Position numbers and translations under genes: made by a program. The notes beneath the pieces were generated by a model. The model had not been told where the DNA came from and did not search any database. It was given only the letters and a program-made list of their open reading frames with translations. A stretch of DNA of 64,000 bases from Nemophila menziesii (Eukaryota; Streptophyta; Magnoliopsida; Boraginales; Hydrophyllaceae). Numbering within the stretch: position 1 is the stretch's first letter; the number at the start of each line of letters is the position of its first letter. The stretch lies in NCBI GenBank assembly GCA_029959085.1, contig JARWIR010000003.1, forward strand, positions 34,716,005 to 34,780,004, read 5' to 3'. Shown one piece after another: positions 14,791-49,004 of this stretch.

Positions 14791-15547
14791 CCTATTTAAT
14801 GGCTACAGCAGGTTTTTTAACCCACATAACACACAAAACACCCAAAAAAATCCTCCGATTTTCTCCCAAAAAATCAACAAAATTCCATTTTTTTTTTTTG
14901 CAATTCCTTCTCCACTTCATCTTGCATCATTCTTGGTTCAATAATCAAAGTGGGGCTCCATTAATATCATCTTTCATCAAACAATTTAAGGTAATAATTG
15001 CATGAAATTCAATTTTTTTTTTTTTTTTGAATGCTAATTGTGTTTCATTCTTTCTATATGCTTTGATTAGGTGAATTAATACAACTTTCTTGGTAGGGAA
15101 TTAACATCACTCTTCAATTTATCCATCCAATTCAAGGTATTTCCATTAAATTTCATGCTTTTTAAGCTTTGTATTTAATTGATTATATTAGCAAGTTGAT
15201 ATACCATATGATTAGGTTAATGAATTAAATATTTGTTGGTTGATTATGCATGTGTTGTGTGAATTTATATTTTGTGCTCATATATTTTTACCTGTTTATT
15301 TAATTATTTGTTTTTTTTATATATTCATTCATTAATTTAATGGTTTGTAATATTTATTCATTTAATGGTTTGTAATTTTTATTCATTCAATGGTTTGTAA
15401 TATTTATTCATTCAATGAGTTTGTAATTTTTTTTATTTTGTTTATTGTGTTGTAATTTTTATTCATTTTATTCATTGGGTTGTAATAATTATGTATTTTT
15501 TTTTTTATTAATGTAGTCGCATAGTTTACTCAAATTGTTGTTAAGTG

Positions 15548-17344
15548 ATGGCATCGAGTTCGGGCATGAGTATCGATAAGAGTTGGATCGAATCGAAGAA
15601 TGTGTTAGATGCTGAATATATTTTTGGGGTTTATAAATTTATCGATTTTGCTAAGAAAAGTAGAGGTTATACCGGTTACTTGTCTTGTCCGTGTAAGAAG
15701 TGTAATAATTTTTGCCGATTAAAAACCAATGATGTTATGGCCCACCTTCTAAGAGAGGGGTTTAACCATGATTATAAGGTTTGGACAAAACACGGTGAGG
15801 AAGAGATACAAACACATACACCCCCTGCAAGTAAAGATCCAGTTATAGTAAATGAAATCGAGCATGTTTATGACGATGTGAGACAGAGTTACGATGTTGG
15901 TGGACATCCGGGAGACACCGAGATGAGAGATGCACATATTCCAAGTCGAAGTAGTTTTGACACGTTGTTCGAAGAACTGGAGACAGAATTATTTCCTGGT
16001 TGTGAATCGATGGGTTCGTTGAATTTTATTGCCAAGCTAATGCACGTAAAAGTAAAGAACAAATGGACTAACACCTCATTCACCGAGCTACTGGAGTTGT
16101 TGGGTCGTATTTTGCCTAAACCTCACAATTTGCCCGAATCTTATGAAGCATGCAACAAGAAGTTGAAAAGTTTGGGTATGGGGTATGTTACCATCGACGT
16201 TTGTTTGAACGATTGTGTTATTTATTACAAAGAAAACAAAGACCTTGATAAGTGTCCAGTTTGTAACGAGTCTAGATGGGACCCAAAGAAGGGTATCAAA
16301 GTACCGCATAAGAAGCTTCGATATTTTCCGATTGCTCCTAGATTACAGCGACTATTCGCTTCAAAGCACACCGCTGAAGACATGATTTGGCACCATACCG
16401 GTAACAGTGCAGATCCGGATGTGTTGCGTCATCCGGTTGATGGTGATAGTTGGAAGAGATTTGCAGCGCTACACCCTGAGTTTGCTAGTGAACCTCGTAA
16501 CGTATATCTGGGTCTTGGAATCGATGGGTTTTGTCCTTTCTCTATGCAAAACAACTCGTATAGCATGTGGCCAGTCATATTAACCGTATATAACTTGCCC
16601 CCGTGGGTATGCATGAAGGAAACCACATTCCAGCTTTGTTTGTTGATTTCGGGACCCCGTTCACCCGGTAAGGACATGGATGTCTTTCTTCGTCCTGTTA
16701 TAGATGAGTTGGAAGAGTTGTGGGATAAAGGGATCGTTACGTATGATGCCCACAAGAAAGAAGAGTTTACGATGAAGGTTTGTTTGTTGTCTACCACTAA
16801 TGATTTCCCCGCTAGGTCATACACTTCGGGATGGTCGGGTCAAGGTTACAAAGCTTGTCCCGAATGCATGGATCATACTCCGTCATTGAGTGTGAACAAA
16901 GGGATTGTTTACTTTGACCATAGACGTTGGTTACCTGCCGGACATCCATTTAGAAGCGAATGTGTTTTGTACAAGAAACCCGATGATAGGCGCCCACCGA
17001 AGAAATATAATCCTGCAAGTATTCAGACACAGTTAGATGGGCTTCCCATTGTGTTTCCCGGTAAACACAAGGATTTTGGGGGAAAGATCGTGAAGCAAGA
17101 TGTTAATCGACGATTCAATTGGAAGAAAAAGAGTATTTTCTATCGTTTACCTTATTGGTCTGAAAACTTGTTGAAACATAACATTGACGTTATGCATTGC
17201 GAGAAAAACGTGTGTGATGCTCTTCTCGGTACAGTTACAGGTCTTGATGGGAAAGTGAACAAAGATAACGTGAAGGCGAGATTGGATCTTGAGGAAATGA
17301 AGATTAGAAAAGAATTGTGGTTGACTGAGGAAATGAACACTTAA
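15548..17344 (+). CDS. TNP2-family transposase (tnpD type), C-terminally truncated
   Basis: This is the transposase thought to cut CACTA ends. The ATG at 15548 follows a leader with two likely introns (donors AAG/GTAATAATTG near 14991 and AAG/GTATTTCC near 15137; acceptor AATGTAG near 15516). It encodes 598 residues. The transposase-associated domain covers about residues 10-85 (GYLSCPCKKCNN, DVMAHLLREGF). The TNP2 domain follows from about residue 230 (CPVCNESRWD; DGFCPFSMQNNSYSMWPV; YNLPPWVCMK; GWSGQGYKACPEC). Near residue 545 is DVMHCEKNVCDALLGT. It ends ELWLTEEMNT-stop, and the stop codon comes from the first unit of a minisatellite. The DUF4218-type C-terminus is absent, so the protein is probably inactive. 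Confidence 0.85.
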   Translation: MASSSGMSIDKSWIESKNVLDAEYIFGVYKFIDFAKKSRGYTGYLSCPCKKCNNFCRLKTNDVMAHLLREGFNHDYKVWTKHGEEEIQTHTPPASKDPVIVNEIEHVYDDVRQSYDVGGHPGDTEMRDAHIPSRSSFDTLFEELETELFPGCESMGSLNFIAKLMHVKVKNKWTNTSFTELLELLGRILPKPHNLPESYEACNKKLKSLGMGYVTIDVCLNDCVIYYKENKDLDKCPVCNESRWDPKKGIKVPHKKLRYFPIAPRLQRLFASKHTAEDMIWHHTGNSADPDVLRHPVDGDSWKRFAALHPEFASEPRNVYLGLGIDGFCPFSMQNNSYSMWPVILTVYNLPPWVCMKETTFQLCLLISGPRSPGKDMDVFLRPVIDELEELWDKGIVTYDAHKKEEFTMKVCLLSTTNDFPARSYTSGWSGQGYKACPECMDHTPSLSVNKGIVYFDHRRWLPAGHPFRSECVLYKKPDDRRPPKKYNPASIQTQLDGLPIVFPGKHKDFGGKIVKQDVNRRFNWKKKSIFYRLPYWSENLLKHNIDVMHCEKNVCDALLGTVTGLDGKVNKDNVKARLDLEEMKIRKELWLTEEMNT

Positions 17345-18220
17345 CTTTGACCACAAACACTTAACTTTGACTCTAAACACTTAACTTTGACTCTAAACAC
17401 TTAACTTAGACCATAAACACTTAACTTTGACCACAAACACTTAACGTTGACCATAAACACTTAACTTTGACTCTAAACACTTAACTTTGACCATAAACAC
17501 TTAACTTTGACCACAAACACTCAACATTGACTCTAAACACTTAACTTTGACCACAAACACTTAACTTTGACCACAAACACTTAACTTTGACTCTAAACAC
17601 TTAACTTTGACCATAAACACTTAACTTTGACTCTAAACACTTAACGTTGACCACAAACACTTAACTTTGACTCTAAACACTTAACTTTGACCATAAACAC
17701 TTAACTTTGACCACAAACACTTAACGTTGACCACAAACACTTAACTTTGACTCTAAACACTTAACTTTGACCATAAACACTTAACTTTGACCACAAACAC
17801 TTAACGTTGACCATAAACACTGAACTTTGACTCTAAACACTTAACTTTGACCATAAACACTTAACTTTGACCACAAACACTCAACATTGACTCTAAACAC
17901 TTAACTTTGACCACAAACACTTAACTTTGACCACACACACTTAACTTTGACTCTAAACACTTAACTTTGACCATAAACACTTAACTTTGACTCTAAACAC
18001 TTAACGTTGACCACAAACACTCAACATTGACTCTAAACACTTAACTTTGACCATAAACACTTAACTTTGACCACAAACACTTAACGTTGACCACAAACAC
18101 TTAACTTTGACCACAAACACTTAACTTTGACCACAAACACTTAACTTTGACCACAAACACTTAACTTTGACCACAAACACTTAACTTTGACCACAAACAC
18201 TTAACTTTGACTCTAAACAC
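17341..18220 (+). repeat. Minisatellite: 44 units of exactly 20 bp inside the CACTA transposase gene
   Basis: The unit is TTAACTTTGACCACAAACAC, with variants ending CTCTAAACAC or CCATAAACAC and internal TTAACGTTGA or TCAACATTGA. All 44 units keep 20-bp spacing. The array begins within the last codons of the transposase frame and replaces the rest of that gene. Units 4-20 and 22-38 repeat almost the same order of variants, which shows a 360-bp internal duplication. Confidence 0.95.
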
Positions 18221-18379
18221 TACGAACACCATAGTTTGACTCTAACTGTTGACTCTACACACCCCGAACTCTTAACTTTGACTCTAAACGTTAGCTAAAC
18301 ACCCCCACATGAATAATATGTAAAGTAAAAAAAATGCAAGAAATGGTAAGCTTCTTAATCCATGAAAAAAAAAAAAAAA
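18221..18379. other. Spacer after the minisatellite, with decayed units and a poly-A run
   Basis: Fragments of the 20-bp unit (TTAACTTTGACTCTAAACG) continue to about 18300. A unique stretch and A17 at 18364-18380 follow. No gene is visible. Confidence 0.6.
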
Positions 18380-33875: not shown

Positions 33876-34118
33876 CTTAGTCCAATATACAAATTTTAAC
33901 CTTCGTTTTAAGGTTAGTAATTAAACGACCATTCCTGATTGAGAAATTGACACTATCATTTGAGAGAGAATTCATAAAATTATAAGAACCAATTAGAGGT
34001 AAATGTCTATTAAAGAAATTATTTAAAAAAAGGTGCCTCCAAAAAAACATTTTAGAGAAAACAGCCTCTCCCAAAACTACCCCTAACTAACAATTAAAAA
34101 AAAAAAAAGCCACGCGTG

Positions 34119-34127
34119 TATATATCT
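34119..34127 (+). promoter_or_regulatory. TATA-like element near the left MULE terminus
   Basis: GTGTATATATCTT lies about 130 bp inside the element, ahead of the leader exon that ends at AACAAA/GTAAGT (34359). It is the likely promoter of the plus-strand gene. Confidence 0.45.
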
Positions 34128-34854
34128 TCTGTTTAAAAAAAAAAAAAAAACAAAACGAAACCGTCCATATACAAACAAAACTGCACACGCAAAGACACAA
34201 AACTGCACACACACACTACGAGAGAGAGACGACGACGAAAAGCGAACGGAGAAAAAGACTCACCGGCGACTCACGGAGAATCAACGGCGACTCAACACCG
34301 GCGACTAAACACCGGCAACGACCACAACACAAGTAAAATCCAAACAAAACAACAACAAAGTAAGTACTTCTAAAAACCTAAAATCGATGTTATTGTGTAA
34401 TTTTTTAGTGAAATTTTTTATTCCGACTGTGTTAATGTATGATTCACAAACAAAAACAAAACAAATATACAAATCATGTTGAATTTGAATGATTTTTGCA
34501 TGATTAATGTTTGATTAAGATATACAGTGTTTCTTTATATATAGCGATTTTGTTAGTTTCTAGGGTTTATAATACGATTTTAGGATGAATGTAGTAGAAT
34601 AATGTGATTAACGTAAACAGAAAATGAATTGCAGTGATTAAACATGATTAAAATGTGCAACAGGGACCTATAGTGCAATTATTTTCAAAATATTTGAGGT
34701 ATTAGTGTAAAATATACATAAAACAGGGTCTGAGACTAAATTATTGAGTAAATATTGTGAAGATTATAGACAAAATGTATAGTTTAGGGACCTTATAGTG
34801 TAATTAGTGCATAATATGGAAATCTGCAAACTGTTTTTAGTAAGTGTACTAAAA

Positions 34855-34960
34855 ATGGAATTCCATGTTTAATACAGTTATCAAACATGGAATTTCATGT
34901 CTTGATAACTGTAATAAACATGGAATTCCATGTTTAGTACACTTACTAAAACATGGAATT
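34855..34960. repeat. Palindrome cluster 1 (leader intron of the DUF1985/Ulp1-like gene)
   Basis: Four units of the CATGGAATTCCATG family, one perfect (34919-34932). The linkers AATACAGTTATC and GATAACTGTAAT are complementary, as are the outer flanks. From about 34836 to 34950 the cluster therefore forms one large inverted repeat centred on the second unit. Confidence 0.9.
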
Positions 34961-36321
34961 AACTCAATTTCAGAAATACTAATTTGTTTTCTTGTGCTTG
35001 TGTAAAAACAGGAGAAAATGGCACCAAGAAGAAACATGAATAATGAAGAAGTAGATGAAGTAGAAGAAGGGAGAAAAACAAGAACTTTTAAAGAAACAGA
35101 CAAGTCGAATTCAACTATACTTGTAAAGTTACTGAGTGAAGAAAAATTTAAAGAACATCACATAGAATGGTGCAAGGAAACACCATTCTATGAATTGATA
35201 AATGGATTATACAAGTTAATAAAAAGAAAAGAAAACTTTATACATAGGAAAGGCGATATTATAACTGAAGAAATAATTAAATGCTACTCAAGACAGAAAA
35301 AGGGGTTCGTGTTTGGAGAAAGAGTAATAAAATTCAAAAGAGAAGATGTAGCTGTTGTAATGGGAATCAAAGCAGGAGAGGAAGAATTCCCTAGTCTATC
35401 AAATGAAGAAGCTTGTGAATTAACGGATTGGCATGTCAAGTACTTTGGAGAGAACAAAAGGGTGAAAACAACAGATATAAAAGTGTTGTTGATGAATATG
35501 ATTGAAGACATTCCAGATGTGGAGGGAGAAGGTGAAGATGAAAAGAAGGAAAGAAAAGAAAGAGTGGAGAAAGAAAGGAAGGCAGATTTCCTTCTGTTAA
35601 TGACACTTTTCATAATGGGGAATGTAATGTACTCAAATACAGGAGTTGTAATCAAGAAAAGAGATATTAGGACAACCGAAATGATAAAAGACAATATGAC
35701 GGAATATGATTGGACAGGAAGACTTATAGATTTGCTACAGGAATCCTTGGAAATCTTTAGTAGGACAAATCCGAAGAAAGTAATAGGATGCGTAACAGTT
35801 CTAGTGGTAAGAAACAAGACTAATCTAAAAATACATATATATATATAAGTTTATAAAGTGTACTAATATTATACTTTCTTATGTTGCACAGGCTTGGTTT
35901 TATGAATATACATCTTTGGGAACTAAATTAAGACAAAATGCTTGGCCAAGAATTCTGAGATGGAAGCTAGATTATAGAGACAGAAAGTATAAATCGGCAG
36001 TAATTGACAAACTAAGAAAAAAAGAGGTAAACTAAACATAAGATTTACATATATATAACTTAAACAGTTAACTAAAACTGTACATATCTTCCACAGGTTA
36101 GAAAGAAGATAGTCATAAGCGATGAGGAAAAAGAAAAACTTGGGTTAAAAAAAGATAATGAAGAAGAAGAAGATGACGATAGTGTCGTATCTCTGACACA
36201 AAGAGATTCAGAAGATGAGGAAGAGGAAGAGGAAGAGGAGAAGGAGGAGGAGGAAGAAGCTGAGGAAAAAGCAGAAGAAGAAAAAGGTAAAAAAAAATGC
36301 ATTAGGTTAAGTGTTATAAAA

Positions 36322-36436
36322 CATGGAATTCCATGTTTCAAACATGGAATTCCATGTTTCATTCAGTTTCGTACTGTATGAAACATGGAATTCCATGTTT
36401 TATACAGTATAAACATGGGATTCCATGTTTTGTGCA
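36322..36436. repeat. Palindrome cluster 2 (intron 36287-36485)
   Basis: Perfect CATGGAATTCCATG at 36322, 36343 and 36384, and a one-base variant at 36414. Linkers contain TACTGTATG and TATACAGTAT. Confidence 0.95.
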
Positions 36437-37488
36437 GTTAACTTTTGGTCTTATAACTATTTTTTTTTGGTATTGATGGTTGCAGATGAAGAAGAAGAAG
36501 AAGAAGATACAACTGTAAAAGATTTACATGATGAATTAGATGGGGCTTACAAGAGACAGCACATCCTAGAAAAGGAGAAATCCAAGCTGGAGAAACAGTT
36601 AAAAGAAATAAACGAAAAGGAGAATAAGAAAATAAAGAAGCTGGAAGAATCAAACAAAAAACTGAAAGATCGAGTAAACGAACTAGAGACGGAGAACACG
36701 GAGCTTCACGTGCAAAGAGTAGAAAAAGATTCAATAATCAAAAAGCTCGAGGAAGAAAAGGAGGTGGACCACTATGTAGAGAGCGCAGTGGACTATGGAA
36801 TGTACATGGACACGCCGCCAAAGAAAAACAGTGGACAGGACAGAGAGGGAGGAGTAGAAACAGAGAAAGAAAACGAGCCACCGGTGAATATGGAAACCGA
36901 CAAAGAAAACGAGACGGAGGTGGTAGCGCAAAAGGAGCAAGAAAGTGGAAAAGAAGCGAATCCCGAGGTGCCAGCTGGAGAAATCGTACAAAAGGATGAA
37001 GAAAAAGAAAAAACACCACCTGCCCAGGATGAAGAAGAAGTTCAAATAACGGGAGAAAAAGCAGAGGGTGTAAAAATAAGTTCAATGGTAACAAGGGTGA
37101 AGAGAAATCCAAGAAATGCAAAGAAGAAACTCGAATCGGACTTCACGACACAGAAAACAAAAAGAAGAAAGGTGAGCAAAAACATAGAATTCGATATAGA
37201 GAATACATCGAAGAAAGTAGAAAATGAGAATGAGCAGAGAATGAAAAAACGTCAAGATAAAGGAAAGGCAAAAGTAAATGAAGGAAAAGTCGATGAAGGA
37301 AAAGATGAAGAGGAGAAAAGGTGGGGAAAGGTTGTATATGGAAGAAAAAGGAATAAAAAGAAGAATACTTATGACTTCATAGAAAAGAGACATGTAAAAA
37401 AAGTAAACGATATTTTAGAACAACAAAAGGACAAATTGTAAGATTTTAACTTCTCTTCTATACTTATTTTAATCTTTTATGTATTAAC

Positions 37489-37494
<6 letters not shown>

Positions 37495-37528
<34 letters not shown>
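37495..37528. repeat. (AT)n microsatellite next to a 3' splice site
   Basis: About 17 AT dinucleotides directly before TTTTTGCAG, the acceptor of the exon at 37537. Confidence 0.95.
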
Positions 37529-37531
<3 letters not shown>

Positions 37532-37644
37532 TGCAGGTGTGCTGTGTGGGGAGAAAACATGACTGTACCAGTAACAATTGAAGACATGGAAGCGATAGCA
37601 GAAGAAAAGGCGATCGATATGAGCGTAAGTAGAAAATATTTATA

Positions 37645-37872
37645 ACTGTAATAAACATGGAATTCCATGTTTATTACAGTTATTAGAACATGAAATTCCA
37701 TGTTTATTACATTTCCTAAAACAGTATACATATAAATAACATCGAATTCCATGTTTATTACAGTTATCAGAACATGGAATTCCATGTTTTGGTAACTGTA
37801 TAAAACATGGAATTCCATGTTTATTACACTTACAAAAACTGTATAACACATGGAATCTAATGTTTATTACAG
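37645..37872. repeat. Palindrome cluster 3 (intron 37625-37872)
   Basis: Six units: perfect at 37656, 37773 and 37806, degenerate at 37689, 37740 and 37849. The last unit ends TGTTTATTACAG, which is the acceptor site itself. Confidence 0.92.
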
Positions 37873-38804
37873 GTTATAGAAGCATACTTGGCTCTGCTAC
37901 AGCATGAATTTGATAAGAAAGAAAAACACGAGACAAGTATGGACAATTTATTTATCGTGGAGTACAAAGTTGCACACATGCAAACAGAAACAATGGTAAG
38001 CAAAAATTATTTTCACTACTGAATATATATAAACGATTAATGGAAATTGTTCAATATATGTAGGATTTCGTTAACGGAAATGACCCCGGAATAATGTAAA
38101 AACAAGTGAAGAAGTTATTTTTAAAAGCTGTTGAAAATATCGAAGGTGAAAACATGAGTGTACTCATTCCTATACAAACGGTGGAGGACGAGGATAATGT
38201 AAAAGATTCACACTGGTCACTCTTAGTGTTTGAACTCCACGAGTTCCCCGAAAACAAATGGAGACACTACAACCCGGGAAGGGAACTTAAAAATCAATCC
38301 TTCGCCGACAAATGCAGAAAAAACGCTGAAAAAGTCTTCCACTATCTTGATATGGGGCCTGGACCAGATTCCGAGAACCAGTCTCAACTAGAGTTGAAGG
38401 AGATGAATTGCCCCCAAATGGCTGAAGGAAGCCAAAACAGTGGAGTTTATATTTGCATGTACGCGGAGGACATGTACAACACAGCTAAAATTAGGGAGAC
38501 ATTCGAAAAGAATGAAGCTGAGAAGTTCCGTGCAAGGATGTATATGCAATTCTTAGACAACAAAGATCAAAGAATTAGTTATTCAGACACTTGAAGAATG
38601 TTTGAACTATTATGTTTTTAATTATTTTAGGTTTGTTTAAAGATTCTAATGTTTAAAATGAATTGTAATGAATTCTTAGTTTATTAATTTGTTATGAATT
38701 GTAATGAATTCCAATATTGAAAAAATTCTTAGTATTATATGTTTGTCAATTACTTTATTATAATGTTTCGATACAAACAGGTTACTTGAACAAGAAAGCA
38801 ATTT

Positions 38805-38985
38805 CAATGGAATTCCATGTTTTTCAACTGCACAAAACATGGAATTCCATGTTTTATACAGTTGAAAAACATGGAATTCCATGTTTCATACGGATATCAA
38901 ATACTGAATTCCATGTTTTTGATATTTGTATGAAACATGGAATTCCATGTTTTTCAACTGTATAAAACATGGAATTCCATGTTTT
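38805..38985. repeat. Palindrome cluster 4 (between the two convergent MULE genes)
   Basis: Six units, perfect at 38838, 38870, 38936 and 38968. The span 38838-38981 is a nearly perfect 144-bp inverted repeat centred on the degenerate unit near 38909. Confidence 0.95.
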
Positions 38986-39199
38986 GAAAAATGTAAACCT
39001 GCAAGAAAAACAACTTAAGCTAGTGAGCTAAAAATGATATACTAAAACATAATCACTATAAAAAACAATATAAAACACAAAAAAGTATAAGATCAAAAAT
39101 TATTCAAACCATAACTATAGAATCTGTAAAATGATAAACAATTCAATTTAAAAAAAACTATTAAAAGGAATGTAATGATCGTAAAAAATAAAACAAAAA
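38986..39199. other. 3' flank shared by the convergent MULE genes
   Basis: AT-rich, with no gene; it contains the probable 3' UTRs of both genes. Confidence 0.5.
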
Positions 39200-41719
39200 T
39201 CATATAGCAACTCGGCAAGTTTTGGCATTATGATGTCCTAGTGTGTGACAACGTTGGCAGGTTATCATCTTAGGTTCGTGCTCAAATTCTCCACGAGACT
39301 TGAAACGTTTCGTTCTGGGTCGGCCGGGAGGAACCTTGACGATTGGAGGCTGCACATAAATATCGTTGGGCCCGAGGGGTGGTGAAGGTGTAGCAAACGT
39401 GGAAAAAGCAGGAACGTTCCGAGAGTAGCATTCCTTGTATAATGCGGTCTGATAATACCTCTCGATATACTCTAAACGGTGAACTGGATCTACCGATTTT
39501 TGCAAAACAGCGACGGCATGTGAACAAGGGAAACCGTGAAACTGCCAATCCCCACACGTGCACGAGCATCTATGAAGATCGACAACATGAGAAGGGTCCG
39601 AAACAACTTGATACAATTGTCCTGATTGACGAAAAACTGTCCAAGAACGAGATTTGTTAAAATGTTGTTTGTAGACAAGCTCCGCCTCGGGTACAAGTGT
39701 TGTGCTCCACTTCGAAGACTCTAAAAGCCTTTCTGAAAAGATACGCATTACCCAAAGCCGGATTTGATCGATTAGCTCCATAATTGGTAGTTGGTCCCAC
39801 TGCTCACGCTTCAATCTCGAGTTCACTGCTTCGGCAGCGTTTGAAGTCATCTCCCCGTAACGCTTGCCCTGGAAAAAAGCATTGGAAAAGTTTTCTTTGG
39901 GCAAATTATCCATGAAAGTACGACCAACGGCTTTCCCTTCACGGATGAAAACTTCAAAAGCTATGTCGAATTCTGCAGCGTTTGGAGCATGGGCTACCCT
40001 GTTTAACAAAGTAATCATAGCCTACCTGTATGGACCCAAGCCTCTACCTTTTATCGAGTCCCGAAGATTGTTTCTCAAATGAAATAAACAGAAAGAATGA
40101 AAACCATCGGGAAACACTTCCCTCACGGATGTTATGATACCTTGAAAACGGTCCGAGATGAACGTGATTCGACGATCGTCGACCAAAGGTCTAAGAAACC
40201 TCAAAAATACATTCCAGTTTATGGTGTCCTCGCCTCGGACCACTGCAAATGCAACGGGGAAAATACCTGCATTGGGATAATCAAACAAAACACAATCAAA
40301 ATCATAAAATAAATTAAAAAGAAAAAAAGGAAACAGAAAAATTCAAGAAAAGGAACACAAAAGAAAAGAAATTCCATGTTTCAAAACATGGAATTCCATG
40401 TTTTGTGCAGTTTAAAAACATGGAATTCCATGTTTTGTGCAGTTTAAAAACATGGAACTCCATGTTAGTACAACTAGCATAACATGAAAGCTCCAGGATT
40501 TAATTTCTGTATTAAACATGGAATTCCATGTTTAATACAGTTTCTAAAACATGGAATTCCATGTTTAATACACAAACAAACTCTGAAAAACAGGGGGAAA
40601 TAGAAAAGGAAATCAAAGTTAACTAACCTTTTTTGGCGTCCTTTGCAGTTACAACTAGAAGATGTCCCTTATACTTGGAGTTCAAATGTGTACCGTCTAT
40701 AAAAAGCATTGGACGGCAAGATTTAAAACCGTAAATACAACCACCAAATGCAACAAAGCATCGCTCAAATGTGGAAGTGACTGGATCATACTCGTAATGA
40801 ACTTGTGTGGATGGATCCGCTGATTTCAACTTATCTAAATAAGATCGTAATCGATGGAACGAAGAAGACAAGTCGCCATGAACTTCGTCCTTGGATTTTT
40901 TAGACTATGATGAGCAATCGCGTAAGATATATCGAATCCGTAATTGAATTTCAAATCCCTGATAATATCTTTCGGAACGATATCAGGCTTAGCCCTAACG
41001 TCTTCAACAACCAAATCAGAAATCACGTTACACTTAATAACCTTGCTAACCGTAGATTTCATAACCGCACCACAGTTGTGCTCGTTTATTAACGTACGTA
41101 TGTAGAAAAAGCCGTTGCTACGTTCACGAGAGGCGTAAACTTTCCAAGGACATCCGTTGGTTTTGAAACCTTTGCAATGAACCGAGCATTTATACATGTA
41201 ATTATGAGTAAAGTAATACGTAAAACCTACTTCGCTCGCAAATTTGGCAAGGGCATTACGAAATTCAGCAACTCCCCCATAAAAGCTTTGACCTACGTGA
41301 CTTATTAGTTGACTCCAATGGTTGCTTTTCAGAACCAAGTCTTTGTGAGCACCAAAGGTATGCTCCTTTGGATCGTGGAAAGAAATGACCTTTTTAGAAG
41401 AAGAAGAAGAAGATTCCAGAACGGTGATAGCCGAGCAAGAAGTAGACTGAGAGGCATCGTTTTCACGATCGTCGGTAACATAAATATCCATACGTTGCAA
41501 AGTAGTCTCGCTAACCAAAAATTGCATGTTGGAAAAGTCTTCTTCGCTCTTCAACAAACAGTTGGTGTCATCTCCCACTGAATATACTAGATGCGTGGAA
41601 CTCAAAACAAGGGAAGGCCATTTAGACAACACGTAATCGAAAACAGAATCGAGAGTCGGGAAAAGATCAAACGAACGCATAGAACGTTGAGAACCGTACC
41701 GAACTACAGCCATAACCAT
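39200..41719 (-). pseudogene. mudrA-type MULE transposase, one frameshift and one nonsense codon
   Basis: This is the DDE transposase of the element. A leader exon ends near 42524. Exon 2 is 41719-40628 (ATG directly after acceptor TTTTATGCAG) and exon 3 is 40266-39200. The N-terminal MuDR-type DNA-binding region has FRNALAKFASEVGFTYYFT and CPWKVYASRE. The MULE core has LFIDGTHLNSKYKGHLLV, FISDRFQGI and FHSFCLFHLRNNLRD. The SWIM finger is CSCTCGDWQFHGFPCSHAV, and a C-terminal knuckle reads CQRCHTLGHHNAKTC. Two lesions are visible: a frame change at T6 (40896-40901, plus strand), and TAG at 40024-40022 between GLGPYR and AMITLLNR. With one base restored the length would be about 719 residues, normal for mudrA. 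The intron 40267-40627 and the leader intron carry palindrome clusters 5 and 6. Confidence 0.85.
40367..40563. repeat. Palindrome cluster 5 (transposase intron)
   Basis: Perfect units at 40387, 40419, 40517 and 40550, a variant at 40451 (CATGGAACTCCATG) and a half unit at 40367. At 40517 the palindrome extends to 34 bp through CTGTATTA and TAATACAG. Confidence 0.95.
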
Positions 41720-41811
41720 CTGCATAAAACAATTCATGACATAAGTACTAGAATACAGTAAAACAAACAAAGGAAGAAGTATAAAAAGGGGGGGAAATTT
41801 CTGTGGAGTTG

Positions 41812-42017
41812 TAGAATTCCATGTTTTAAAAATGGAATTCCATGTTTCATGCAGTTTAACACTGTATTAAACATGGAATTCCATGTTTAAAACATGGAAT
41901 TCTACACTGCACAAATCTCTTCACAGAATTCCATGTTTGAAACATGGAATTCCATGTTTCATGCAGTTGCATACTGTACAAAACATGGAATTCCATGTTT
42001 AAAACATGGAATTCTGC
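41812..42017. repeat. Palindrome cluster 6 (transposase leader intron)
   Basis: Eight units: perfect at 41872, 41943 and 41984, one lacking the first base at 41831, and four half units (GAATTCCATG or CATGGAATTC) alternating with them. The roughly 110-bp module around 41831-41900 is repeated around 41930-42017. Confidence 0.93.
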
Positions 42018-42732
42018 AACTGCATAAACCTATTCACAGAATTACAACTCAAACACACAATATACTGCGAGTAAAACAGTTTAAACACAGAATTTAGCTG
42101 TATAGAAGCAAAAAATGAACAAAGTGAAGAATTTAACACAGAATTTACAGAAAAGTAAGCAAAATATGAAGAAATGAAGAATGTAAAAACATTTTCATAA
42201 CAAAAAGAGCTTAAACACAACAATTTGCTAATATCAAAGCAAAATATGAACAAAACTAAGAATATAAACACAAAATCAACACAAAACAAGCAATTCGAAA
42301 AGAAAAACCTTCAAAACAGTAGAATTGGTAAAAGTTTTAAAATGTGAATGAAAATGCTTTAAAAACAGAGAATACATACACATTTATACGTATATATATA
42401 AACTAAAACCTGCAAATCAGCAAAACACCAAAAATGAAATAAAAAATTCAAAAAAAAAGAGAAGATAAAACAGAGCCGAGAGAGAGAGAGAGAGCATGGG
42501 AGGTAGAGGAGATGTTAGATTACCTTTTGGAGAAGAAGAAACAATCGACTAATCTTTGTGAGTTAGATTGGTGAGTGTGATTGAGATGCGTGAGCTTGGT
42601 GAGCTTCTTAGCTTAGCAATGGAGAATCGGTTAGAGGAGAGAGAAAGTGAGAGAGAGAAATATGTAGAGAGAATCTATGTGTGAGTGTGTGATAATAATT
42701 GGGGAATTAATTACCTAGTTTATAATAAGTAG

Positions 42733-42740
42733 TATTTATA
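42733..42740 (-). promoter_or_regulatory. TATA box of the MULE transposase gene
   Basis: TATAAATA on the minus strand, about 145 bp inside the right terminus. A GA-rich leader exon with donor AAAAG/GTAATC (42523) follows. Confidence 0.55.
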
Positions 42741-42892
42741 TTGGATAAAAAGGGAAAAGCAATAATTAAGGGGAGTTTTTCTCTAATTACTTAATTAAGA
42801 AGACATTTATCTCTAAATAAAAAAGTTAGAGGCTTAAAAAAATTAGTAGCCTCATTAAGAATGCATTTTTCTCCAATTACCCCAAATTATAA

Positions 42893-47690: not shown

Positions 47691-48020
47691 GGGTATTTGT
47701 TAATTTATTATAAGGGGTATTTGTTAAAAAATGCCTAATAAAAGTACTACTTATTAAATTAAGCATTCAATTATTTATTTAACAAAAAAAAAAACCTAAT
47801 AGAACAATTATTTATAGATAACATCCCGTTTATATTTTTTATACCTTTACTACCCTTATTATTAGATATATTATTTAATTTTTAGTACAATATTTTTAAA
47901 TATTAAACAAATAATAGGGACCTTCCACCACCACTATCACCACCACTACCATGTATTTAACGACCACTACAACCACCACAACCATCACCACAACCACCAC
48001 CACCACCATCTACTACTACT
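47690..48020. repeat. Repeat segment ending in an (ACC)n tract; inverted copy at 60549-60880
   Basis: TTATAAGGGGTATTTGTTA occurs at its left end (twice in tandem). TTATTTATAGATAACAT and an ACC/ACT-rich tract (47930-48010) follow. The same order in reverse complement is found at 60549-60880. Confidence 0.65.
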
Positions 48021-48060
48021 AATTCCATATTACACGCGCGTCCCTGAATTTTTATTTAAT

Positions 48061-48418
48061 ATCGTCATAAATAATTCTAAAAAATCAGAAAAATAAAAAA
48101 AATACATTTTTGGATAAAGCAAATTAATATTTACGTCTATGATTTTTTTTGATTTATTTTAGTTTTTTTAATTTTTTTTTGAAGACACGGATTTTCATGT
48201 TTAAAACACGAAATTCACTGTGAAATAGTAATTTTTTTCGCAGACACAGATTTCCATGTTTAAAACATGAAATTCCATGTTCAAAACATGAAATTCCGTG
48301 TTTGCGAAAAAAAATTAAAAAATTACAAAATATCATAAACGTAAATATATTAATTTGATTTATCCAAATATATAAAGTTCTTTTTTTTTTTGATTTTTTT
48401 AGAATTAGTTATCACGAT
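48061..48418. mobile_element. Foldback element with roughly 100-bp arms
   Basis: The left arm starts ATCGTCATAAATAATTC and includes GGATAAAGCAAATTAATAT; the right arm read inward is ATCGTGATAACTAATTC and GGATAAATCAAATTAATAT. The loop (48180-48310) holds degenerate copies of the MULE palindrome (CATGAAATTCCATG at 48266). No clear target duplication was found. Confidence 0.7.
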
Positions 48419-49004
48419 TTAAAAAAATTTCATGAAAGTGAGAATTGAGTGGGACATTTTCCAGCCACTTGTAGCAAACTAGTCTGTGAAAGTTGAGGTG
48501 CTCTAAAATCGAGAGACTAGGGGAGTTCGGCTTTGCATGTGGTCTCTTGGATCACCAACTCAACGAAGAGACGGAAGAGAAAACTTGGAAACAGATTCAT
48601 GGGGTTGAATCTTCTTTCACCCAAAAATCAGAAGAAAAAAGACTCCACGTTTATTTTCTCAGCCAACAAATCTAGGGACCAGATAGATTTCCTGGAGAAG
48701 AAAATCCAAGCTAACAAGACCTTGGCACAAACGTCAAATCAACATGAAAAAGAGGGAGAGCGATCTGATTGACTTCACAACTTGTCAAAGGTCCGCTAGG
48801 GAGAGCGATCTGATTGACTTCACAACTTGTCAAAGGTCTAGCGGATATATATATATGGGAGCCATTTTGCAGAATTAAAAACGCTGACATGGATTTCACA
48901 ACACCAAACAATGAGTGAGACAAGCTTGTAATATCGTTAATTTCCTTAACTTTAAATTCGAGCCAAAGTACAAGATTTGAAACCATAGTTAGTTAATATA
49001 TAAT

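Follow-up and report, generated by a model that had tools for sequence, protein, structure and literature searches.

The stretch of DNA analyzed here (the window, 64,000 nt long) extends from position 34,716,005 to position 34,780,004 on the forward strand of contig JARWIR010000003.1 of Nemophila menziesii (GCA_029959085.1). It carries a Mutator-like element (MULE), the noncoding DNA of which is rich in a short palindrome and which harbors two convergent genes: a VANC/KIU-like gene on the plus strand and a Mutator transposase gene on the minus strand (Table 1). The limits of the element are exact, since the sequence AAATTATAA is duplicated on both its flanks, and the complete MULE of about 8.9 kb with a 9-bp duplication announced in a first-pass annotation, made from the letters of the sequence, was thus borne out (8898 bp). 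As regards the long terminal inverted repeats which VANC/VANDAL elements lack, the two termini agree at 13 of their 20 outermost bases (as counted by eye over these bases), and, out of a total of 347 inverted repeats, the list of the 25 longest includes no terminal pair. The transposase matches the Pfam domains DBD_Tnp_Mut (E 3.2e-8), MULE (3.1e-9), and SWIM (3.9e-11), and its frame is broken by a stop between two pieces at around 40021 and by a frame change at around 40904. The element therefore combines a Mutator-type transposase with a 9-bp duplication, as the VANC/VANDAL elements do.

Eighteen perfect copies of the 14-bp core CATGGAATTCCATG were detected, all located between positions 34919 and 41997, whereas the mean number expected is 0 and none of 100 shuffled sequences reached 18. 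When up to three mismatches are allowed, the element contains 33 units, which is close to the figure of about 34 proposed in the first-pass annotation, and its count of 18 perfect cores in six clusters was found to be correct. Its statement that none of the units lie in exons holds for all 18 perfect cores and for 32 of the 33 units, but not for the variant at 37183 (three mismatches), which is exonic. Based on the splice models, the clusters occupy three introns of the plus-strand gene and the intergenic gap, as well as two stretches of noncoding DNA in the transposase gene. They belong to long imperfect inverted repeats, which the first-pass annotation had not mentioned, such as those at 34835-34951 and 38833-38986 (96% each). 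The commonest 20-mer, AAACATGGAATTCCATGTTT, accounts for 98 of the 213 units collected from eight loci, several of which are close copies. Read from its letters, it contains neither a CG nor a CHG site, and CG or CHG methylation could therefore not mask the palindrome.

Table 1. Features of the MULE and of the foldback repeat in the window (positions are those of the window).
Feature	Position	Strand	Remarks
Complete MULE	33986..42883		8898 bp
9-bp target duplication on the left flank	33977..33985		AAATTATAA
9-bp target duplication on the right flank	42884..42892		AAATTATAA
VANC/KIU-like gene	35018..38594	+	Splice model with seven coding exons, the last of which is broken by one in-frame stop
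Coding exons of the plus-strand gene	35018-35806, 35892-36026, 36097-36286, 36486-37437, 37537-37624, 37873-37995, 38064-38594	+	Splice model
Exon 1: N-terminal domain, remote relative of DUF1985	35018..35806	+	hhalign E 3e-31; no Pfam match
Ulp1-like (Peptidase_C48) C-terminal domain	38100..38591	+	E 1.7e-4; Ser (NSG, aligned by eye) in place of the catalytic Cys
MULE transposase gene	39200..41741	-	DBD_Tnp_Mut, MULE, and SWIM domains; frame interrupted
Palindrome cluster 1	34854..34932		5'-UTR intron of the plus-strand gene (intron 34360-35011 predicted by eye)
Palindrome cluster 2	36322..36427		Intron 3 of the plus-strand gene
Palindrome cluster 3	37656..37862		Intron 5 of the plus-strand gene
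Palindrome cluster 4	38806..38981		Gap between the two convergent genes
Palindrome cluster 5	40365..40563		Transposase intron
Palindrome cluster 6	41810..41997		Noncoding DNA at the 5' side of the transposase gene; enclosed in an inverted repeat (100-nt arms, 87%)
Foldback (MITE-like) repeat	48009..48432		Four variant palindromes at its center; separate from the MULE

As regards the objection that the palindrome might be equally common in unrelated sequence, 7068 copies of CATGGAATTCCATG were counted in the 1.52-Gb host genome, as compared with 22 copies of the reversed motif used as a control (321-fold). A search of the genome with the exon-1 protein gave at least 147 matches, which were classified into groups depending on their identity with the window copy: 92-100% in group A, about 90% in group B, about 66% in group C, and 33-35% in group D, along with further copies at 84-85% and 75-76% and many degraded ones between them. 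Each of the 30 loci fetched (the best of the 147, including the window copy, L005) has one or more perfect palindromes within about 3.8 kb, where about 0.02 would be expected from the density in the genome, and the stretch matched by the exon-1 protein is free of stops in 29 of them. Target duplications were found in five of the seven long loci of groups A, B, and C (all but L038 and L040). The five elements with both ends resolved (the window copy, L035, L036, L037, and L039) all carry both genes and the clusters, and the absence of either from intact relatives, which would have spoken against the first-pass annotation, was therefore not encountered among them. Since the window copy is damaged, the argument rests on its relatives.

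The word TGGAATTCCA is the top repeated word in groups A, B, and C, occurring 14-29 times per long locus. In the seven long loci, none of the 198 palindromes (up to two mismatches) overlaps a coding match; two of the 198 lie in a flanking foldback repeat, and no transposase match was found in L038. The arrays have been gained and lost between introns: the intron-5 cluster of group A is absent in group C, which has nine units in intron 6 instead, and the intron-3 cluster consists of 0-7 units among the 30 copies fetched. Upstream of exon 1, 27 of these 30 copies have three units; of the remaining three, one has four units, another has a single unit, and the last has no unit. Comparisons between group A and group C (L039) showed that the identity of the plus-strand protein ranges from 47 to 84% per exon (65% in exon 1, 73-84% in exons 2-3, and 47-69% in exons 4-7), as compared with 77-89% in the transposase pieces.

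The palindrome is not confined to this MULE: the motif, which is otherwise private to the noncoding DNA of the element and is dense there, is shared with a foldback repeat about 440 bp in length with long inverted ends and 3-7 central palindromes, spaced 21, 29-33, 40, 51, or 65 bp apart. The members of this family are the repeat in the window, L001 (identical to it at 355 of the 388 aligned bases), and L052-L056. Nine palindrome places on contig C1 (L001, L002, L003, and L051-L056), which were picked by hand and are mostly small clusters rather than a random sample, correspond to six foldback repeats and three MULE relics. Since six of these nine places are foldback repeats, this repeat probably accounts for a considerable share of the 7068 copies. 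With the palindromes masked, no clear similarity was detected between the foldback repeat and the MULE, the best match being one of 67 nt to the interior of the MULE (E 0.003). Whether the foldback repeat might be a cut-down MULE of subfamily C was also considered, and this was rejected because the L039 matches lie in the flanks of the L039 MULE, which has been inserted into such a repeat: the subfamily C element at L039 (422-9729, duplication AAAAAATAA) sits in a foldback repeat next to its palindromes. This single case may possibly be due to chance. A second repeated motif of the window, at 17335-18280, was likewise rejected as a similar array, since it is a plain tandem array of about 45 contiguous 20-bp copies, that is, an ordinary minisatellite, which adjoins a long open frame (15545-17341).

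The first-pass annotation described the plus-strand protein as DUF1985/Ulp1-like. No DUF1985 match was obtained with Pfam at E values up to 1 either in this protein or in any of eight proteins of groups A-D, nor was any obtained in the first domain of a further group, E, described below. In a profile comparison (hhalign), however, exon 1 of groups A-D matched a DUF1985-type set with an E value of 3e-31 over 206 columns (24% identity), and group E matched it with an E value of 2.5e-27; this set consists of three members, all of which match DUF1985 (best 3.6e-8). Judging from these profiles, the plus-strand protein is remotely homologous to the DUF1985 proteins but lies outside the Pfam family. 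A homolog search with the N-terminal 330 residues yielded 3674 candidates, none of which had an E value of 0.001 or less, and the AlphaFold model of exon 1 alone had a mean pLDDT of 34.5 and was not used. The Ulp1-like C terminus stands, with a Peptidase_C48 match of 21.9 bits (cut-off 20.7) and stronger matches in groups D (7.1e-7) and E (3.7e-9), but the catalytic cysteine is missing. DCG is the catalytic consensus of the Ulp1-type proteases. Aligned by eye, this position reads NSG in groups A and B, DSG in C, and DAG in D, whereas DCG is present in group E (L045) and in another group, F (L049), and the protease part is therefore likely to be inactive in groups A-D.

The D, E, and F proteins are 24-35% identical to the window protein (24-29% over exon 1 in the case of E and F). 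A search of the genome with group D gave 146 matches and revealed group E, at 39-43% identity with D; group E occupies just over 100 rows of matches, often with 2-5 copies within 30-85 kb. The Pfam DUF1985 search of the genome gave 21 loci, eight of which were above the cut-off, including L049, the group F locus, which has a convergent MULE transposase and the exon of which, taken alone, scores 33.9 bits, just below the cut-off of 35.1. When the top repeated words were extracted at each locus without any preset target, the motif was found to be a dyad in groups D (GTGTTNCANNAACAC, 12 and 11 copies at two loci) and E (GTACTTGNNCAAGTAC, 4 and 5 strict copies and 17 and 20 half-sites at two loci). 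At the one F locus examined, it consists of two asymmetric words, AGTTCTGAGYA and AGTACTGAGYA (17 and 10 copies), eight of the copies being on the minus strand in the front part and 19 on the plus strand in the rest. Against the controls, the genome counts were 2289 versus 0 for D, 695 versus 1 for E, and 2861 versus 8 for F.

Protein group and motif change together. When 18 columns were compared, three dyads (those of A, D, and E) and the first of the two F words proved to be confined to their own groups. The second of the F words was encountered in L043 as well (three times), and stray half-sites were noted for A (three in L043 and one elsewhere in the window), D (one in L047), and E (one elsewhere in the window). 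The variant TGAAATTTCA was found once each in L040 and L044. Of the 695 E sites, 51 distinct ones were listed, all on contig C1, and 50 of these lie within three blocks of 33-63 kb holding E genes. With the coding spans drawn by hand from open frames, the motif hits falling inside them were 0/23 and 0/26 at the two D loci, 0/18 and 0/20 at the two E loci, and 1/29 at the F locus, where the hit is at the edge of the span. The general idea of a factor/target pair put forward in the first-pass annotation is partly supported by this comparison between groups A-F. The D motif also recurs in pairs 201-202 bp apart (nine pairs among the sites listed), which suggests the existence of a D-type short repeat.

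The E genes are clustered as 3-5 paralogs within 33-84 kb, at C340:42097331-42130537, C35:23571626-23655769, C1:1670550-1709739, C1:2200355-2242795, and similarly elsewhere, which look like giant elements carrying several such genes; no transposase was found in the two 10-kb E pieces examined. A second dyad, TATGGGAANNTTCCCATA, recurs in both E loci examined. At L046:7699-8340, downstream of an E gene, there is a second, different DUF1985-like gene (E 3.7e-4, below the curated cut-off). Plant mobile domain (PMD) matches below the cut-off were obtained in the E proteins at L045:1265-1963 and L046:1407-2183 (best E 5.3e-4), and one member of the DUF1985-type set matches PMD at 1.3e-6, hinting at a kinship between DUF1985 and PMD.

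The spacings between palindromes are mostly 21, 32-33, 41, 50-51, and 66 bp in the window, and mostly 20-22, 30-33, 40-41, 49-51, 61, and 65-66 bp in groups A, B, and C as a whole. The mean cosine at 10.5 bp is 0.68 in A, 0.77 in B, 0.76 in C, 0.71 and 0.65 in D, 0.62 in F, and 0.83 and 0.76 in E (from only four and seven spacings, respectively). Despite some exceptions, all four motif groups favor spacings close to a multiple of 10.5 bp, and the fact that four unrelated motifs show similar phasing is a stronger point than the single p-values. Helical periodicity is said, in Sasaki 2022, to be a property of VANC targets.

That study of co-evolving anti-silencing systems in eudicots (EMBO J 41:e110070) reportedly also showed that specificity is set by the sequence, density, and helical periodicity of the motif, that many such systems exist per genome, and that non-autonomous elements are protected. 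We know of no palindromic motif described there. A search of the literature gave no paper on palindromic VANC targets, as judged by title. VANC/KIU systems with private noncoding motifs have been published in the case of Arabidopsis, as attested by passages of PMC5735166 and PMC13317346. The passages of the former dealing with VANDAL21 (Hiun) and VANC21 (Hosaka 2017) describe a MULE-type element that encodes a transposase along with a DUF1985-type protein, a private short motif which is dense in introns and intergenic DNA, the arrays of which are gained and lost, and an anti-silencing gene which is more variable than the transposase; all these features have parallels here, as does the presence of the VANC6 motif in an unrelated repeat, AT9TSD1, which resembles the case of the foldback repeat (PMC5735166). 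The present element differs in that its protein is beyond the reach of the Pfam DUF1985 profile and has an Ulp1-like part, and in that two genes were found, whereas VANDAL21 also has VANB, according to the same passages (PMC5735166). KIU (Kaonashi), as presented in parts of PMC13317346, also combines a VANC-type and Ulp1-like protein in a MULE with private noncoding motifs; here, in contrast, the catalytic cysteine is replaced by serine or alanine in groups A-D, while the E and F copies examined retain it, and the sites of groups A, D, and E are dyads. Lastly, Spm TnpA and MuDR MURA are element-encoded proteins tied to the loss of methylation of their own elements, in the account given in part of PMC10398659, but MURA acts on the terminal inverted repeats of non-autonomous copies, whereas the arrays studied here are internal (PMC10398659).

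On the most parsimonious reading, the element probably carries a VANC/KIU-like, sequence-specific anti-silencing system with palindromic targets, in which the protein would bind the arrays and silencing marks would be lost. The divergent DUF1985/Ulp1-type protein would recognize the AAACATGGAATTCCATGTTT palindromes in the noncoding DNA of its own element, presumably as a dimer in view of the dyad, and this binding would, by analogy with Arabidopsis VANC, strip the silencing marks from its own family. Since the Ulp1-like part has no catalytic cysteine in groups A-D, the protein would act through binding and recruitment and not through deSUMOylation. The foldback repeats, which carry the same arrays, would be protected along with the element, as hitch-hikers.

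Several points weigh against this interpretation. The window copy is damaged in both genes, and Pfam did not detect DUF1985 in the plus-strand protein. The target differs from that of VANC21, since it is a 14-20 bp palindrome without any orientation, whereas VANC21 arrays consist of the asymmetric motif YAGTATTAY in a single orientation, as described in passages of PMC5735166; nor is there any enrichment of the VANC21 and VANC6 motifs in their strict form in the element, which has one of each as compared with two and three in the other 55 kb of the window. L043 and L048, which are 47-48% identical to group A, have eight units between them, all of which are variants, and contain two copies each of TGAAATTTCA, which is altered alike in both halves. 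No comparable array was found in the relic loci L044 (51%) and L047 (44%), both of which are truncated, or in the DUF1985-type locus L050, which adjoins a copia-like element (as seen by eye). As regards the phasing, the group E values come from few spacings, the spacings within an array share their descent, so that the p-values are overstated, the preference is weak over the distinct A-C spacing classes (R 0.46, eight classes), and the F sites in the genome listing are often 14 or 18 bp apart, off phase. The avoidance of exons would also be expected of neutral repeats.

A purely neutral process, in which slippage and strand switching multiply the palindromes, and these survive wherever they miss an exon without any binding protein being involved, is nevertheless an unlikely explanation. 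It would fit not only the absence of arrays from exons but also the variable number of units in intron 3 and the long inverted repeats, which suggest strand switching. On the other hand, the same 20-mer has been kept in groups A and C despite the divergence of their plus-strand proteins and the location of their clusters in different introns; the separate foldback repeat has the same motif with similar spacings, and each gene group has a motif of its own. That the arrays might be hairpins of intron RNA, serving as a source of small RNAs or as a splicing device, is quite improbable. Each unit could fold into a short hairpin, the clusters are inverted repeats, two of the eight units of L043 and L048 are altered alike on both sides at one position, and VANDAL targets overlap those of RNA-directed DNA methylation, according to part of PMC10398659. 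Over the 213 units of the eight loci, however, the changes are mostly one-sided (among ten position pairs, the two-sided changes are complementary in seven cells and non-complementary in 15), the arrays are also present in the intergenic gap and the foldback repeats, and their helical-turn spacing points to DNA. MULE transposases bind DNA, and the five A/B/C elements whose ends are resolved have the motif, but it can hardly consist of transposase binding sites used in transposition. The outermost 860 bases at the start of the window element and 880 at its end, where such sites would be expected, contain no palindrome (up to three mismatches), and, of the two proteins, it is the transposase that has been conserved between groups A and C.

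Apart from this anti-silencing system itself, it is quite possible, though far from assured, that at least four insulated anti-silencing codes coexist in this genome, each composed of a DUF1985/Ulp1-type protein and its own motif, three of the four being dyads which would be read by a dimer; the pseudo-protease would then be a pure reader of DNA addresses, and unrelated foldback repeats would have copied the palindromic address. The general idea of private, fast-changing motifs has already been published, which makes this less surprising, but the palindromic targets, the four codes, and the sharing by foldback repeats remain of interest. If the anti-silencing interpretation is true, sequence-specific anti-silencing would no longer be limited to the asymmetric motif of the VANC21 type but would include palindromic targets, and unrelated repeats would appear to share the protection signal of a transposon. 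The groups would also provide a natural panel of protein/motif pairs for reading the recognition code of DUF1985-type proteins, and DNA methylation could be edited with several orthogonal, sequence-addressed tools.

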